From Sphingobium sp. KCTC 72723 (GTDB taxonomy: Bacteria > Pseudomonadota > Alphaproteobacteria > Sphingomonadales > Sphingomonadaceae): a stretch of DNA of 64,000 nucleotides. A model generated the notes under the pieces. That model saw only the letters and a program-made list of their open reading frames with translations, made no database searches and was not told where the DNA came from. A program made the position numbers and the translations under genes. The stretch lies in the NCBI RefSeq assembly GCF_014280435.1, contig NZ_CP060388.1, positions 3,876,001-3,940,000 of the forward strand, read 5' to 3'. Of this stretch, positions 30,916 through 37,596 are shown piece by piece (position 1 is the stretch's first letter; the number at the start of each line of letters is the position of its first letter).

Positions 30916-31623
30916 TTACCGCTGCGCCTCCAGTTCGCGGCTCAGCGTCGAATAAAAACCGTCGGCAAAGCGCGACAGCCGTGATTCGAGGCGATTGATG
31001 CCATGGCTGAAGCGATTATAGGCAATGACCGCCGGAATGGCCGCGAACAGGCCGATGGCAGTCGCGAACAGCGCCTCGGCAATGCCCGGCGCAACGACGG
31101 CCAGCGAACTATTCTGTTCCGCCGCGATGGAGGTGAAAGCGCGCATGATGCCCCATACCGTGCCGAACAGGCCGACGAACGGCGCGACCGACCCGACCGT
31201 CGCCAAAATATTCAGCCGGTCGGACAGGCGATCCACCTCTGCCGCGATGGTGCTGGACAATATGGTGGACAGGCGATCGCGCGTGCCGTCGCGGTCGATC
31301 ACTTTCTGCGCGGTCGAACGCCGCCATTCGGTGACGCCTGCCGCCATCACGCGGGCGGCGGCGAAATCGGCCTTGCCGCGCGCTTCGTAGAAACGGTCGA
31401 TATCGTCCGCTTTCCAGAAATCCGCCTCGAACGTCTGGCTTTGTTTGCTGGATTTGCGCAGCGTCACCGAAAAACCGATGATGATCGCCCAGGTCCATAT
31501 GCTGGCCAGCAACAGGCCCGCCATCACGCCCTTCACGACGATATCGGCCTGAAGGAACAAAGCGAGCGGGGAAATGGTGGCAGCTTGCGCGACCGCGCCG
31601 ACATCTGGCAGGTTGAGGGTCAT
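30916..31623 (-). CDS. tolQ: Tol-Pal system protein TolQ
   Basis: A 235-residue MotA/TolQ/ExbB proton-channel protein with three membrane helices: about 20-45, 130-155 (GSVAPFVGLFGTVWGIM) and 170-195 (FATAIGLFAAIPAVIAYN). ATG 31623 overlaps the ybgC stop and gives the normal length; an upstream extension lacks membrane character and is rejected. Confidence 0.96.
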   Translation of the reverse strand: MTLNLPDVGAVAQAATISPLALFLQADIVVKGVMAGLLLASIWTWAIIIGFSVTLRKSSKQSQTFEADFWKADDIDRFYEARGKADFAAARVMAAGVTEWRRSTAQKVIDRDGTRDRLSTILSSTIAAEVDRLSDRLNILATVGSVAPFVGLFGTVWGIMRAFTSIAAEQNSSLAVVAPGIAEALFATAIGLFAAIPAVIAYNRFSHGINRLESRLSRFADGFYSTLSRELEAQR

Positions 31624-32102
31624 GGGTGGAAATCTTCCCCTTGGCAAAGGCGGCTGAAAATATCGGTCCAGGCTTTGGGCTGCCGCTGCGGGCGGCCCTG
31701 TGGCGACAGCCAGGCGACGGACACGGTGCCGTCGGTTATCTGTTCGGCGTCGCGCATGACTGATTGATGAATGGCGCATGTCGCTGCGCCCACTTGCGTC
31801 ACCCGGCTGACGACCATCAGGTCGTCGTCCAGCCGGGCGGGGCGACGATAGCGGATCGCGACATCGGTAACGGCATAGGCACCCGCCCCGCCCTCATGGC
31901 TGGCACGCTGGTCGATGCCTGCGATGCGCAGCATGTCGGACCGGGCGCGCTCCATATAGCGCAGATAATTGGCGTGATAGACGACGCCCGACAGGTCGGT
32001 ATCCTCAAAATAGATGCGCAGCGGGAAATGATGCACGGCGGCGATGAACCGTCCGGTCGCGGGCGCGAGGATTGGCAGAGAAACGGGCGGCGCAAAGGAC
32101 AT
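31620..32102 (-). CDS. ybgC: Tol-Pal-associated acyl-CoA thioesterase YbgC
   Basis: A 160-residue hot-dog fold thioesterase. The active-site segment is [20 protein letters not shown], with the catalytic Asp in EDTD and the family Tyr-His-Asn. It hydrolyses acyl-CoA or acyl-ACP species and classically heads the tol-pal operon, here overlapping tolQ by 4 bases. Confidence 0.93.
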
Positions 32103-33143: not shown

Positions 33144-34175
33144 TTATCCCACCCCCAGCCCATGCTTTTTCATGCAATGGCGCAACTGGTCGTAGGTCAG
33201 GCCCAGCCCCTTGGCGGTCGCGCGCTGGTTGTAGCGGTAGCGGTCGAGCGCGGCGCGGATGATGCCTGCTTCATGCGCGTCCACTGCCGCGCGCAGGTCG
33301 CTGATTTCCTCCAGAGCGGCGGTGACCGGGGCGGACGATGCGACCGCCGCCACTGGCCCGTCGCATGGCGCGGCGGGCGTCGGCATCAGTGGTTTGGGCT
33401 TCCATGGCGATGCGAACGGATCGAAGGTGATCTTGCTGATCGGCCGCCCCGGCGCGTCCCAGCGATAGACGGCCCGCTCCACCACGTTGCGCAATTCGCG
33501 CACATTGCCCGGCCAGCCATAGCCCTCCAATTCCGCCATGGTCGCCGCGTCGAAGCCGGGCCATTGCGGCCAGTTGATTTCCGCCGCCATCCGCCGCCCA
33601 AAATGATCGACCAGCACTGGCACGTCGCCTTCTCGCGCGCGCAGCGGCGGCAAAGTGATGACCTCGAAACTCAGCCGGTCGAGCAGGTCGGGGCGAAAGC
33701 GCCCGGCGTCAGCGGCGGCGGGCAAATCATCATTGGTCGCCGCGACGATGCGCACATCCACCCGCACCGGCTTGGACGCGCCGATCCGCGTCACTTCGCC
33801 ATATTCGACCACGCGCAGCAACCGTTCCTGCGCCGCCATCGACAGCGTGCCGAGTTCGTCCAGAAACAGCGTGCCGCCATCGGCTTCCTCGAACCGGCCC
33901 GGCCGCGCGCGGTTCGCGCCAGTGAAAGCACCCTGTTCATGGCCGAACAATTCCGCCTCGATCAGGGTTTCGGGCAATGCCGCGCAATTCATCACGATCA
34001 GCGGTTCGCCCCAGCGCGGCGACAGATGGTGCAACCGTTCGGCGATCAGTTCCTTGCCGGTCCCCCGTTCGCCGATGACCAGCACCGGGCGATTGAGTTC
34101 GGCAGCGCGCCCGGCCTGCTCCACCGCGTCGAGAAACGCGAAGGATTGGCCGACAAATTGGGTATTTTTCTCCAT
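33144..34175 (-). CDS. pspF: Phage-shock activator PspF (sigma-54 enhancer-binding protein)
   Basis: A 343-residue AAA+ activator without an N-terminal receiver or sensory domain, which is the PspF architecture. Walker A GERGTGKE, the sigma-54 contact loop GAFTGA, Walker B TLFLDELGTL and a C-terminal Fis-type HTH (NQRATAKGLGLTYDQL) are visible. It should activate the psp operon that starts on the other strand from the sigma-54 promoter at 34278-34294. The start at 34175 immediately precedes MEKNTQFVGQS, the conserved PspF beginning. Confidence 0.95.
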   Translation of the reverse strand: MEKNTQFVGQSFAFLDAVEQAGRAAELNRPVLVIGERGTGKELIAERLHHLSPRWGEPLIVMNCAALPETLIEAELFGHEQGAFTGANRARPGRFEEADGGTLFLDELGTLSMAAQERLLRVVEYGEVTRIGASKPVRVDVRIVAATNDDLPAAADAGRFRPDLLDRLSFEVITLPPLRAREGDVPVLVDHFGRRMAAEINWPQWPGFDAATMAELEGYGWPGNVRELRNVVERAVYRWDAPGRPISKITFDPFASPWKPKPLMPTPAAPCDGPVAAVASSAPVTAALEEISDLRAAVDAHEAGIIRAALDRYRYNQRATAKGLGLTYDQLRHCMKKHGLGVG

Positions 34176-34277: not shown

Positions 34278-34294
34278 TTGGCACGACCCCTGCA
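34278..34294 (+). promoter_or_regulatory. Sigma-54 (-24/-12) promoter of the psp operon
   Basis: TTGGCACGACCCCTGCA matches the RpoN consensus: GG at -24 (34280-34281) and GC at -12 (34292-34293), exactly 10 bases apart. It lies between divergent pspF and the psp genes, so transcription would begin near 34305. The 100 bp between it and pspF is where PspF binding sites would be expected; TCGCAAGCGA at 34208 is one weak dyad there. Confidence 0.9.
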
Positions 34295-34360
34295 ATGCTA
34301 CAGGCAATCCGCAACCAATCGCGGAACCATATGAAGGCCAAGGCTCAGGGAGTGTATAAG

Positions 34361-34534
34361 ATGGACAAGCATAGCAACAGCGTTCGCGAAATCGGCCAGC
34401 TAATGTCGGTCGCGCTTGCCGCCCTGCTGTTTGGATCGACCCTGATCCTTGCGGCGGTCGGCCCGGCCCGCGCCAGCGAAGCCCCGATGCTCGCCAGTGA
34501 CACGACCCCCATGACCTTGCGCTATCTTGCCTGA
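34361..34534 (+). CDS. Small exported or membrane peptide at the head of the psp operon
   Basis: A 57-residue protein lying downstream of the sigma-54 promoter and 42 bp before pspA. AGGGAG sits 8 bases before ATG 34361. A single hydrophobic segment (about 14-36, IGQLMSVALAALLFGSTLIL) ends in a signal-peptidase-like ARASEA, leaving a tail of only about 18 residues. No family recognised. Its co-transcription with pspA implies a role in, or report of, envelope stress; this is inference. Confidence 0.7.
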   Translation: MDKHSNSVREIGQLMSVALAALLFGSTLILAAVGPARASEAPMLASDTTPMTLRYLA

Positions 34535-34576
34535 GGTCATCGCCCCCCAAATGCCAAGACCAGGAGTGACGTTCTA

Positions 34577-35245
34577 ATGGGTATCTTCTCCCGCACCCGC
34601 GACATCATCGCCGCCAATGTGACCGACCTGCTCGACAAGGCGGAAGATCCGTCGAAGATGATCCGCATGATCATCCTCGAAATGGAGGAAACGCTGGTGG
34701 AAGTGCGCGCGTCCGCCGCCCGCACCATCGCCGACCAGAAGGAAATGCGCCGCCACATCGCCAAGCTGGCCGGTTTGCAGGACAGCTGGACCGAAAAGGC
34801 GCAGCTGGCCCTGAGCAAGGACCGCGAGGATCTGGCCAAGGCCGCTCTGGTCGAGCGGCAGAAAGCCGCCGACATGGCCGATCATCTCAATCATGAGATC
34901 GTGACCCTCGACGATGCGCTCAAGGCCGCCGAAGAGGATATCGCCAAGTTGCAGGCCAAGCTGCGCGAAGCCCGCGTGCGCCAGAACAGCCTGGTCACCC
35001 GGATGCAGAGCGCGGAAAACCGTCTGCGCGTGCGTGAAGCCTATGCCGGTGAAAAGGTGAACGACGCTTTCGCGCGTTTCGACCTGATGGAACGCCGCGT
35101 CGATATGGCCGAAGGCCGCGCCGATGCCATGAATCTGGGCGGCGCGCCCAAGACGCTGGAAGAAGAGATTGCCGAGTTGAAATCCGCCGACAAGGTGGAT
35201 GCCGATCTGGCGGCTCTCAAAGCCAGCATGAACAAGGAGGGCTGA
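34577..35245 (+). CDS. pspA: Phage-shock protein A
   Basis: A 222-residue PspA/IM30 coiled-coil protein. It binds membranes and restrains PspF under normal conditions, then forms membrane-stabilising assemblies under stress. The N-terminal amphipathic helix MGIFSRTRDIIAAN and the long heptad region with KAEDPSKMIRMIILEMEET are typical. AAGGAG at the 3' end also serves the next gene. Confidence 0.96.
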   Translation: MGIFSRTRDIIAANVTDLLDKAEDPSKMIRMIILEMEETLVEVRASAARTIADQKEMRRHIAKLAGLQDSWTEKAQLALSKDREDLAKAALVERQKAADMADHLNHEIVTLDDALKAAEEDIAKLQAKLREARVRQNSLVTRMQSAENRLRVREAYAGEKVNDAFARFDLMERRVDMAEGRADAMNLGGAPKTLEEEIAELKSADKVDADLAALKASMNKEG

Positions 35246-35248
35246 TCC

Positions 35249-35518
35249 GTGATGGAAGACGTACTTTTACCCCTCATGATCTGCGGCATGTTGTTCATCG
35301 GTATGCCGTGGCTGATCTTCCACTATGTCACCAAGTGGAAACAGTCCCCCAAGATTACCGACGAGGATGAGAAGCTGCTGGATGAACTTCATCTTCTTGC
35401 TCGTCGGATGGAAGAAAGGCTTCAGACGGTCGAAAGGATCGTCGCAGCCGACAACCCCGATTTCCGTCCCGCCCGGTCGCAGGAACCGGACGACTACAGC
35501 TTCGACCGGAGGAATTGA
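35249..35518 (+). CDS. pspB: Phage-shock protein B
   Basis: An 89-residue inner-membrane protein: one helix (about 6-28, LLPLMICGMLFIGMPWLIFHYV), then a cytoplasmic coiled coil ending EERLQTVERIVAADNP. The start is GTG 35249 or ATG 35252; AAGGAGG in the pspA end suits both. With PspC it senses envelope damage and sequesters PspA. Its coiled-coil end is repeated in the four small proteins downstream. Confidence 0.92.
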   Translation: MMEDVLLPLMICGMLFIGMPWLIFHYVTKWKQSPKITDEDEKLLDELHLLARRMEERLQTVERIVAADNPDFRPARSQEPDDYSFDRRN

Positions 35519-35519
35519 G

Positions 35520-35900
35520 ATGACTGCCCGCCGCACCAAATTCTACCTCGACAAGGCCAATGGCAAATGGATGGGCGTCTGCTCCGGCATTGCCGACTAT
35601 AGCGGGATCGACGTGGTATGGGTCCGCGTCGGCGCGGTACTCATCACCCTGATGGGCGCGTTCCCCTGGACCCTGATCGCCTATTTCGCTGCCGTCTATT
35701 TTGCGGAGAACAAGCCGGTCGGCCTGTACGCCGATCGCGACGACGAGAAATTCTGGCAGGGGGTGCGCAGCAACCCGACCCGCTCGACCCGCGACGTGCG
35801 CTCCAAATTCCGCGACATCGACCGGCGCCTCGCCGACATCGAAATCTATTACACCAGCCGCAACACGCGCCTGGCGGACGAAATCGACCGTCTGCGCTGA
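35520..35900 (+). CDS. pspC: Phage-shock protein C
   Basis: A 126-residue PspC-domain membrane protein. KFYLDKANGKWMGVCSGIADY begins the domain, followed by the VWVRVGAVLITLMGAFPWTLIAYF hydrophobic region, then a charged C-terminal extension (RDIDRRLADIEIYYTSR). It starts 1 bp after the pspB stop, with CCGGAGGAA upstream, and completes pspABC. Confidence 0.95.
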   Translation: MTARRTKFYLDKANGKWMGVCSGIADYSGIDVVWVRVGAVLITLMGAFPWTLIAYFAAVYFAENKPVGLYADRDDEKFWQGVRSNPTRSTRDVRSKFRDIDRRLADIEIYYTSRNTRLADEIDRLR

Positions 35901-35934
35901 ATAGTTCCGGGGCAAAACAGGGGAGTTAAGGATC

Positions 35935-36225
35935 ATGAGTTTCGCCGGACCCGGCTTCATCGTCGCCATCGTCGCCCTTTCCATGGGCGCATGGGTCATC
36001 ACCACCTGGCTGCGGGCGCGCTACGGCTATCCGCTGACCGACGACAACGGGAACACCGTTCATCGAACCGACGCCGACGCTGATCGAAAAATCGACCTTC
36101 TTTCGAACGAAAACGAAAAGCTGACCGGCCGCATCAGCCGCCTGGAGGAACGCATCGCCGTGCTGGAGAGGATCGCCACCGATCCTGCCGCCCGCACCGC
36201 GCGCGAAATCGAGGCGCTGCGCTGA
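35935..36225 (+). CDS. Small PspB-like membrane protein, copy 1
   Basis: A 96-residue protein: one N-terminal membrane helix (about 5-26, GPGFIVAIVALSMGAWVITTW), a short polar loop and a C-terminal leucine-heptad helix ending EERIAVLERIATD-REIEALR. The same helix-plus-heptad plan and closing motif occur in pspB and the next three genes. AACAGGGGAGT upstream gives the SD. Function unrecorded as far as I can tell; probably part of the Psp response. Confidence 0.75.
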   Translation: MSFAGPGFIVAIVALSMGAWVITTWLRARYGYPLTDDNGNTVHRTDADADRKIDLLSNENEKLTGRISRLEERIAVLERIATDPAARTAREIEALR

Positions 36226-36266
36226 CCGCAGCATGATCCAAGGCCCGAACAGGGGGAGTGAATAGC

Positions 36267-36578
36267 ATGTTTCCATTCGCAGATTTCGCGCCGGTCGTGT
36301 TTGCCGTCGGGTCGCTGGCGATCGCGGGCTGGGTGTTCACCACCTGGCTGCGGGTCAAGAACGGCTACCCGCTGGACGGGGCATGGGGGCAGGCGGTCTA
36401 TCCGCAGAAGAATGAGGAAATGGCCGAGCGGATCAAGCTGCTCAGCCAGGAAAATGCCCAGCTGCGCGCCGAAATCGGATCGATGAAGGACCGGCTCGCC
36501 GTGGTCGAACGCATCGTTACCGATGAAAGCCACCAGCTGACCCGCGAAATCGAACGGCTGCGCAGCCCCGCCAACTAA
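36267..36578 (+). CDS. Small PspB-like membrane protein, copy 2
   Basis: A 103-residue relative of the preceding protein. Membrane helix about 10-30 (PVVFAVGSLAIAGWVFTTWL), then NGYPL as in copy 1, then a long coiled coil ending KDRLAVVERIVTD-REIERLR. I prefer ATG 36267 over GTG 36258, because AGGGGGAG lies 9 bases upstream of the ATG. The 5' leader (GAACAGGGGGAGTGAAT) also resembles that of copy 1. Confidence 0.75.
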   Translation: MFPFADFAPVVFAVGSLAIAGWVFTTWLRVKNGYPLDGAWGQAVYPQKNEEMAERIKLLSQENAQLRAEIGSMKDRLAVVERIVTDESHQLTREIERLRSPAN

Positions 36579-36615
36579 AGCCAGGCATAATGCGCCAAAC
36601 AGGGAGTGAAGCGCC

Positions 36616-36867
36616 ATGAATCCTTTTGAAATGGTTGCCGCCATCGTCGCGATCACCGCCATCGCCAGCGTGCTGCGCGCCAAATATGGTGTCGTGCGCC
36701 GCGACAAGGGTGAGGAGTTCATCGCACGCGGCCCCGACCCGGAAGCCGAACGGCTCCGCGCCGAGGTGAAGGGACTGAAAGAGCGGGTCGCCGTGCTGGA
36801 ACGGCTGGCGACCGACAGCAGCACTGCGCTGGACCGCGAATTCGACAAGCTGCGCGAGCGCGACTGA
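36616..36867 (+). CDS. Small PspB-like membrane protein, copy 3
   Basis: An 83-residue member of the same series. Helix about 4-22 (FEMVAAIVAITAIASVLRAK), then a shorter polar linker and the coiled coil KERVAVLERLATD-REFDKLR. The leader AAACAGGGAGTGAAG repeats the pattern seen before copies 1 and 2. Confidence 0.73.
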   Translation: MNPFEMVAAIVAITAIASVLRAKYGVVRRDKGEEFIARGPDPEAERLRAEVKGLKERVAVLERLATDSSTALDREFDKLRERD

Positions 36868-36901
36868 GCGCCAGGCAGCGGATATTATAAGGGAGGCTGA
36901 T

Positions 36902-37135
36902 ATGCTGGACGCTACTCTCTATCTGACACTGGCCGCCACGACTTTGGCGGGGCTGGCCATCATTGCAGTTGCGGGTTTGCGCGGCTGGAACGGCTGGCTC
37001 GACCTTAAACGCGCCGAATTGACTCATGGGGTAGAGGTCAGCGCGCCGCCCTCCGCTGCCGCGCGGATCGAGGTCGCCGATCTCAAGGAACGCATCCGCA
37101 AGCTGGAAGCGATTGCGGCGGGCGTGGATCTGTAA
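36902..37135 (+). CDS. Small PspB-like membrane protein, copy 4
   Basis: A 77-residue, most diverged member. Membrane helix about 5-26 (LYLTLAATTLAGLAIIAVAG), then GWNGWLDLKRAEL and a truncated heptad end KERIRKLEAIAAGVDL. GGGAGG precedes the ATG. It ends the psp cluster; sufE follows 35 bp later on the same strand. Confidence 0.68.
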   Translation: MLDATLYLTLAATTLAGLAIIAVAGLRGWNGWLDLKRAELTHGVEVSAPPSAAARIEVADLKERIRKLEAIAAGVDL

Positions 37136-37170: not shown

Positions 37171-37596
37171 ATGGCTGTCATGACCGATCAGCCCAGCCTT
37201 GCCGACATTGGCGAAGAATATGAATTTCTCGACGCGGACGACCGTTACCGGCTGCTGATCGACCTTGGCCGTGCGCTCGAACCCATGCCCGACGCGCTCA
37301 AGACCGACGCGACACTGGTGCGGGGCTGTTCCGCCGCCGTCTGGGTCTATCCCACTGTGCTGGAAGATGGCAGGCTGCATTTTCTGGCCGACAGCAATGC
37401 CGCGATTACCAAGGGGATCATCGCGCTCGTCCTGCTGACCGTGCAGGACCAGACCCCCGCCGCCATCGCCGCAACCGACATCGAAGGGGCGCTCGCTCCG
37501 TTCGACCTCAAAAACCAGCTCAGTTCCAACCGGACGCAGGGTATTCCCAACATGATTGCCCTCATCCGCGCCACGGCTGGCCGCTACACCGGCTGA
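37171..37596 (+). CDS. sufE: SufE-family Fe-S cluster assembly protein
   Basis: A 141-residue SufE/CsdE-type sulfur-acceptor protein. The acceptor cysteine is Cys53 in VRGCSAAVWVYP, and the DDRYRLLIDLGRALEPMP and IPNMIALIRAT stretches are typical. It would take persulfide sulfur from SufS, encoded at 47198-48388, so sufE is detached from the main suf operon here. Start is ATG 37171 or 37180. Confidence 0.92.
   Translation: MAVMTDQPSLADIGEEYEFLDADDRYRLLIDLGRALEPMPDALKTDATLVRGCSAAVWVYPTVLEDGRLHFLADSNAAITKGIIALVLLTVQDQTPAAIAATDIEGALAPFDLKNQLSSNRTQGIPNMIALIRATAGRYTG

Follow-up and report, generated by a model that had tools for sequence, protein, structure and literature searches.

Introduction

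The phage-shock protein (psp) system is a widely conserved stress system in which the handover of PspA to the damaged membrane by PspB and PspC is still an open question. Additional small proteins stand under PspF in enterobacteria, namely PspD and PspG, and in Bacillus the small membrane protein LiaI is encoded before the PspA relative LiaH. According to the available part of the work on Yersinia, the C-terminal cytoplasmic domain of PspC binds PspA in the on state and PspF is released (PMC5596341), and the accessible text on E. coli states that the PspC fragment 69-119, when overexpressed with PspB, induces psp (PMC3068692). A 2024 mSystems article refers, in a single clause, to additional PspB genes within a psp operon, with AOL22920.1 as the example, and the same partial text describes a divergent PspB to which the C-terminus of PspC is fused (PMC11237479). 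Here we analyze the psp locus of Sphingobium sp. KCTC 72723 (Sphingomonadaceae, Sphingomonadales), which lies in a stretch of 64,000 nucleotides (contig NZ_CP060388.1, positions 3,876,001 to 3,940,000 of the forward strand) that is called the window below. Four small open reading frames (ORFs) 3' of pspC are labelled O1-O4, and the products of the first three form one family, in which a PspB-type membrane anchor appears to bear a PspC-type tail.

Results

The four small genes are the following (ratios of nonsynonymous to synonymous substitution rates are abbreviated dN/dS).

35935..36225, plus strand: O1, 96 residues, PspB-like membrane helix and PspC-like coil tail (z-scores over shuffles, profile comparison, dN/dS)
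36267..36578, plus strand: O2, 103 residues, O1 family, with the conserved TWxRxKNGYPLxxxWGxxxYP after the helix (profiles, ortholog group with support 99)
36616..36867, plus strand: O3, 83 residues, O1 family, MNPFEMV type (z-scores over shuffles, profiles, dN/dS)
36902..37135, plus strand: O4, 77 residues, distant relative lacking the EIExLR tail, final small gene before sufE (profiles, group with support 100)

A preliminary description of this DNA had placed ORFs of 96, 103, 83 and 77 amino acids after pspABC, each with one N-terminal membrane helix and a heptad coil, and both the coordinates and this general anatomy were confirmed. Near its N-terminus each protein has a single hydrophobic segment (Kyte-Doolittle mean over 19 residues 1.9-2.1); no lysine or arginine precedes it and 2-4 fall in the next 15 residues, a charge pattern that reads N-out/C-in for O1-O4 and is the same for PspB. 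The heptad signal was matched by 0, 3, 0 and 11 of 200 shuffles for O1, O2, O3 and O4, respectively. By hydropathy, charge and heptads, all four have the layout of PspB, an N-terminal membrane helix followed by a presumably cytoplasmic coil, with weaker heptads in O4.

The core of the O family, LExRVxVLERIxTD, is followed by the tail LxxEIExLR. PspC has a counterpart of core and tail together, DIDRRLADhExYhTSxxxxLxxEIxxLR, whereas PspB matches the first half only, and this is why O1-O3 appear to combine a PspB anchor with a PspC tail. The shared REIExLR C-terminus that had been proposed for all four proteins is present in O1-O3; O4 ends in DLKERIRKLEAIAAGVDL and lacks it, and it looks like a shortened relative of the family. 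Nor is this motif visible in PspB, as had been thought: PspB is without the tail and PspC carries it in full. The term 'PspB-like' is therefore apt for the membrane anchor, but the tail is PspC-like by the profile comparison given below.

Pairwise alignments of O1, O2 and O3 gave z-scores of 14-36 over shuffles, and those with O4 were weak (2-5). None of the four exceeds a Pfam or NCBIfam cut-off and none matches the PspC domain PF04024. The weak single-sequence matches of O1-O3 include TIGR02976 (PspB) or TIGR02978 (PspC) beside equally strong generic coiled-coil families, so that such scans are unable to judge the likeness to PspB. With TIGR02976 (cut-off 51.7) O1 and O3 scored 13.7 and 15.1 bits and O2 and O4 were not listed; with PF06667 (cut-off 25.6) O1 and O2 scored 11.1 and 11.5 bits and O3 and O4 were not listed, all of which is below the PspB cut-offs. 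At expectation values (E) up to 1, O1-O4 matched neither PspD nor PspG in Pfam and NCBIfam, libraries which we take to hold both models. Against solved structures O2 had five matches at chance level (best E 0.045). O3 has 1044 relatives; those of the best 120 for which an organism is named come mostly from Sphingobium, the first at 93% identity. They are usually called 'hypothetical protein', but in UniRef a few bear the name Phage shock protein B (e.g., Sphingobium olei, 77% identity).

Of 246 genomes sampled from the order, 233 have PspA; the 163 that belong to the window's family (a count from the table) all have it, and 94 of these 163 form our family sample: 74 higher-scoring PspA loci and 20 picked for a low PspA score. 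The profile of the O family, built from 266 aligned O-type proteins of the 74 loci, matched PspC with E 8e-8 over 81 columns (46 after realignment), PspB with E 3e-7 over 66 columns and O4 with E 7e-8; with PspB and PspC from loci outside the family only, the values were 9.5e-8 and 2.2e-5. The controls gave 0.012 for PspA, 0.013-0.28 for reversed profiles and, among unrelated membrane coiled coils of the same bacterial family, 0.11 for AtpF and 0.22 for DivIC (30 and 25 aligned sequences, respectively). On the reversed profiles and the AtpF and DivIC controls we reject generic coiled-coil likeness as the source of the similarity. One could argue that unrelated small membrane proteins merely sit in the operon and resemble PspB and PspC as any coiled coil does, because O2 as a single sequence matches JAKMIP_CC3 (4e-4) and bZIP_2 (1.1e-3) at least as well as it matches PspC (1.4e-3). 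However, the controlled profile comparisons, the presence of O-type genes at 74 of 74 and 20 of 20 loci and the core motif, which is kept in 334 of the 343 O proteins of the 94 loci (a recognisable tail in 315), make this highly improbable. The comparison of hidden Markov models with PspB, which had been named as a check, thus places the O family well above other coiled coils but does not do so for O4 alone; O4 is tied to PspB and PspC only via the O family, and its similarity is the weakest. The refuting outcome named in the preliminary description, a likeness no greater than among random coiled coils, was thus not observed for the family.

A survey of psp loci in Sphingomonadales, the second check named in the preliminary description, found at least one O-type gene 3' of pspC at all 94 family loci (the weakest best match has 44 bits). 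Among the 74 loci, four have a single O gene, five have two, 20 three, 24 four, 19 five, and one each six and seven. O4 was recognised (at least 60 bits) at 70 of the 74 and 13 of the 20 loci, i.e., at 83 of 94; it is missing at all five examined loci of the genus g13, where a 54-bit match at one of them (L256) is read as another O type. Outside the window's family 70 genomes of the order have PspA, and of 19 loci from this group 3 have one O-type gene; all three belong to the family f8, in which two further loci have none, and O4 occurs in none of the 19. At these three f8 loci (L058, L059, L102) a second short PspC-domain protein is followed by one O-like protein; the short PspC lacks the coil in L058 and L059, as though one PspC had been divided between two proteins. 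Two other loci outside the window's family (L099, L111) have a second PspB-like gene adjoining pspC.

Matches to the O family were found in 8 of 337 genomes of the class sample, five of them from the window's family; of the other three matches, one falls on the tail of PspC proper and another on a second PspB-like gene. In the phylum sample 41 of 349 genomes matched: 15 from the family, 2 from the order, 5 from the class and 19 from other classes. Twenty stretches taken from the phylum matches hold O-like genes and no psp gene within 6.5 kb. As to PspF regulation of related genes outside psp operons, 5 of 20 have a sigma-54-like site that mononucleotide shuffles equalled no more than 5 times in 200, and 7 of 20 have none. 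Since O-like genes without psp neighbours occur in other classes, the O domain is broader than the family, and the psp array is family-specific on this sampling. The proteins of this kind, from other families and classes (L326-L344, L097), have one helix and a tail like VEVLEKIVTDxxYxLxxxI; the best NCBIfam model of four that were scanned is PspB or PspC, below cut-off. In L097 the O-like gene adjoins ORFs that by eye resemble dut and coaBC. A zinc-ribbon-like protein (by eye; L345, 2728-3117) has the O/PspC-type tail ATDPAERTAREIEALR near its end, where the tail is apparently used on a non-membrane protein.

The O genes are under purifying selection. Median dN/dS at 29 Sphingobium loci (a four-copy locus was excluded) is 0.29, 0.20, 0.16 and 0.21 for O1, O2, O3 and O4, and 0.09, 0.18 and 0.16 for PspA, PspB and PspC. 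A tree was built from 20 loci (91 rows, 96 columns), and 12 of its 88 inner branches are well supported. In it the O2 proteins of different genera cluster with support 99 and the O4 proteins with 100, the O1 and O3 groups are weaker, and no well-supported group is made of the copies of one genome only. Because the well-supported groups join copies from different genera, the duplications seem to predate most genera, with the types kept apart since then. Recent tandem duplication is not supported, with the reservation that so few branches are well resolved. The preliminary description had also argued from near-identical leaders that the duplication included leader DNA. This argument did not survive: the sequences upstream of O1-O4 in 14 Sphingobium loci are mostly AAGGGGAG or CAGGGAG forms, i.e., ordinary Shine-Dalgarno ribosome-binding sites, and among these loci the AACAGGG form stands before both O2 and O3 in the window only, so that the shared leader is no evidence of duplicated DNA.

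Types that stay distinct across genera suit distinct partners or a mixed assembly, and they fit the latter better than gene dosage. They are also what one would expect if the O proteins were alternative sensors or adaptors, whose coil pairs with PspC or PspB while the own anchor and juxtamembrane segment bring in different signals and widen detection instead of providing more docking sites for PspA. The tail is constant and the membrane and juxtamembrane parts vary by type: O2 keeps TWxRxKNGYPLxxxWG in 8 of 8 aligned rows, and a further type, which several relatives have and the window does not, keeps AEKAAQYA or near forms. The retention of the O2 and O4 types across genera fits as well. However, the O proteins have no known signal domain and their soluble linkers are short, and we give this explanation perhaps one chance in four, which makes it the strongest of the alternatives to membrane docking of PspA.

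The surrounding features of the locus are listed here.

33144..34175, minus strand: pspF, sigma-54 activator (TIGR02974, 465.6 bits, cut-off 443.55; start placed by eye)
34278..34294, plus strand: sigma-54 (-24/-12) promoter site TTGGCACGACCCCTGCA, exact consensus, recurring before pspA in relatives
34361..34534, plus strand: 57-residue exported/membrane leader ORF with RYLA end (hydrophobicity, conservation of the slot, fewer nonsynonymous than synonymous differences)
34577..35245, plus strand: pspA (TIGR02977, 278.6 bits, cut-off 242.95)
35252..35518, plus strand: pspB (TIGR02976, 80.4 bits, cut-off 51.7)
35520..35900, plus strand: pspC (TIGR02978, 125.2 bits, cut-off 104)
37171..37596, plus strand: sufE (PF02657 above cut-off), 35 nucleotides 3' of O4

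The order is thus pspF on the minus strand, the sigma-54 site, the 57-residue ORF, pspA, pspB, pspC, O1-O4 and sufE, and the gaps from the 57-residue ORF through sufE are 42, 6, 1, 34, 41, 37, 34 and 35 nucleotides. The locus has the sigma-54 site and the tight same-strand packing of a psp operon. Given the spacing of 34-41 nucleotides and the finding of no terminator-like site on the plus strand, O1-O4 may be co-transcribed; sufE, which lies within the fetched stretch at 67 of the 74 family loci, is possibly on the same transcript as O4. At the 94 family loci 409 of 415 neighbouring junctions are 60 nucleotides or less and at 148 the stop codon overlaps the next start codon, counts that are biased to short gaps by the choice of the nearest start. 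The position of the O genes at the end of an induced operon would fit a negative feedback, in which spare coils occupy PspB and PspC, damp signalling and end the response, and earlier work as cited in the available text of the E. coli paper proposed the cytoplasmic domains of PspB and PspC as negative regulators without stress (PMC3068692). However, according to the same text psp is induced and not silenced in E. coli by additional PspBC or by the PspC tail together with PspB, and we consider such feedback unlikely.

Some observations concern the neighbourhood. ORFs near pspF (window 30916-32102, minus strand), which by eye we take to be TolQ-like and YbgC-like, indicate that a tol-pal cluster may adjoin the psp locus. 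A plasmid origin of the window's psp locus is not supported by a search of a plasmid collection: most of the operon was present at a single locus, on an 880-kb Sphingomonas replicon, and the other results were five short matches to the pspA region. The former (L032, Sphingomonas parapaucimobilis, a large secondary replicon listed as a plasmid) carries a psp locus with O genes and has a 222-residue ORF without a name between the O4-like gene and sufE.

The sigma-54 site is the sole match in the window at one mismatch or less, where 0.55 are expected and 41 of 100 shuffles have one. Because such matches are common by chance, the site rests on its conservation: a sigma-54-like site precedes pspA at 88 of the 94 PspA-chosen family loci, compared to 21 of 1880 shuffled upstream stretches. 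The exported-type peptide of 57 residues noticed earlier behind this site stands, and its slot is conserved in the family. In a set of 175 family loci (the 94 PspA-chosen loci, 80 found via an O2 match and L032; two genomes occur twice) 163 have a sigma-54-like site before pspA, 155 an ORF after the site and 152 a hydrophobic one, of which six exceed 100 residues and 146 are short. Although the ORF was picked by start, ribosome site and hydrophobicity and not by its end, alanine is the last residue in 136 of the 146 short leaders, and L, I, V or M is the next to last in 129; for open stretches of the same regions the figure for terminal alanine is 532 of 4470 (12%). The excess is genuine, yet its size is inflated, because related loci are not independent; among distinct leader sequences 127 of 143 end in alanine. 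At the PspA-chosen loci a short hydrophobic leader was found at 73 of 94 (not found at 21), 68 of the 73 with the alanine end. The terminal alanine codons vary (GCG 47, GCC 44, GCA 39, GCT 6), which argues that the protein end is kept and not the DNA, and the stop codons are TGA (103), TAA (47) and TAG (2). The rest of the leader evolves fast: the nonsynonymous and synonymous differences per site (pN and pS) are 0.15 and 0.31 in Sphingobium, with pN below pS in 432 of 435 pairs. Neither the window leader nor eight others (four of the family type, four from other families) reached a Pfam cut-off.

On these sequence features the conserved exported-type leader would be a second, separate lead. 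It could be a translated control element and not a working protein, e.g., a stalling peptide that keeps watch on export and controls the translation of pspA, as it is first in the transcript, short and fast-evolving, has an export signal and conserves its last two residues. However, its stop and terminal codons vary, only two terminal residues are widely conserved, and the slot holds a 172-residue ORF in Zymomonas; we judge this possibility doubtful, at about one in five. We know of no arrest peptide that resembles a leader with only two widely conserved terminal residues.

The Zymomonas locus is L050, identified as Zymomonas mobilis because all six psp primers for quantitative PCR given in the available text of PMC3495753 match it exactly. 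It has one O copy, and the ORF in its leader slot is by number ZMO1062. In the accessible part of PMC8645129 this gene is up-regulated jointly with ZMO1063-ZMO1065, which is the only expression evidence in the texts available that ties the leader slot to the response; ZMO1066, by number likely the O gene, is absent from the portions of the papers returned by our literature search. ORFs of 121-172 residues occupy the slot in seven loci (L050, L221, L033, L205, L213, L184, L246). Most of them we take, by eye, to be exported proteins with a TonB C-terminal domain. Elsewhere in the order, outside the window's family, the slot often holds a non-hydrophobic ORF of about 48-66 residues with an arginine-rich C-terminus, e.g., RRRERARR (29 loci inspected, seven aligned; L009, L013, L019, L031, L054, L055, L056, L106, L109, and less alike L003, L006, L010, L063). 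Three of these that were scanned matched no Pfam family, and beyond the order this ORF has 3 weak matches in 337 genomes.

Discussion

The explanation that we favor, and to which we give an even chance from sequence comparison, is that the O proteins are extra membrane docking subunits for PspA that mix with PspB and PspC. O1-O3, and less surely O4, would be old and diverged PspB/PspC paralogs that kept the anchor and the coil and are without the PspC sensor domain. Damage to the inner membrane would lead, via PspF and the sigma-54 promoter, to the production of O proteins together with PspA; their coils would most likely assemble with PspB, PspC and one another, and these assemblies would offer additional docking sites for PspA at the membrane. 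PspA held there, away from PspF, would make the response stronger and longer. The sequences establish the anatomy, the homology, the conservation, the purifying selection and the operon-like packing, and the cytoplasmic coil, the common transcript, the mixed assembly, PspA binding and the effect on PspF are proposed on this basis. Anchored PspC-like tails are best read as extra docking or release subunits because the PspC tail with PspB suffices to induce psp, as far as the E. coli text goes. Tuning of PspA recruitment by the O proteins, which had been suggested before, is plausible, since it is to the C-terminal domain of PspC that PspA reportedly binds, in the part of PMC5596341 available.

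Several points weigh against membrane docking of PspA. The available E. coli text (PMC3068692) puts the PspC C-terminus in the periplasm, contrary to the Yersinia work. Relatives of the O proteins occur outside psp operons, so that the fold alone does not imply PspA binding, and a fixed stoichiometry is unlikely because the copies vary from 1 to 7, with a single copy at 4 of 74 loci. The O-family match to the PspC of other families is weaker (E 2.2e-5), and O4 alone is not significant against PspB (0.03-0.22) or PspC (0.29).

It could also be, though this is a speculative extension to which we would assign some one chance in five, that the multi-subunit psp system of Sphingomonadaceae uses mixed PspA-docking anchors to place PspA according to the kind of damage, and that the hydrophobic-alanine end of the exported leader is read in the periplasm, e.g., by a PDZ-type tail-specific protease, and reports the state of the envelope. 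In this family, to which Sphingobium and the ethanol producer Zymomonas belong, the PspC-type tail occurs apart from the sensor domain and in several distinct versions that have long been kept. The O array is thus a natural set of variants for separating the PspA-binding part from the sensing part.

Among the known systems, PspB (TIGR02976/PF06667) shares with the O proteins the one N-terminal helix, the N-out/C-in charge, the coil core ERhxxhExI and the operon; unlike O1-O3 it has no TDxxxxLxxEIExLR tail, and the O proteins score, where listed, 11-15 bits, far under its cut-offs. The C-terminal tail of PspC (the end of TIGR02978), RhxxhExhhTSxxxxLxxEIxxL, aligns with them over 46-81 columns, but PspC has the PF04024 domain and two membrane helices, whereas the O proteins have one helix and no PF04024. 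LiaI and the leader are both small membrane proteins encoded directly before a pspA-type gene; no family match links the two, and the leader differs in its one helix and the conserved -LA/-IA end. The PspB duplicates of PMC11237479 resemble our case as extra PspB genes in a psp operon, but lineage, copy number, types and role are absent from that clause. The main text of this article, as available, has no word beginning with 'sphingo', and the same holds for the accessible text of a 2022 psp survey. Beyond the 2024 clause, the literature portions searched gave no description of the O array, its presence throughout the family, its types or the leader end. Extra PspB genes in psp operons have already been mentioned, and what appears to be new, judged by these sources, is the array, its distinct types and the conserved end of the leader.

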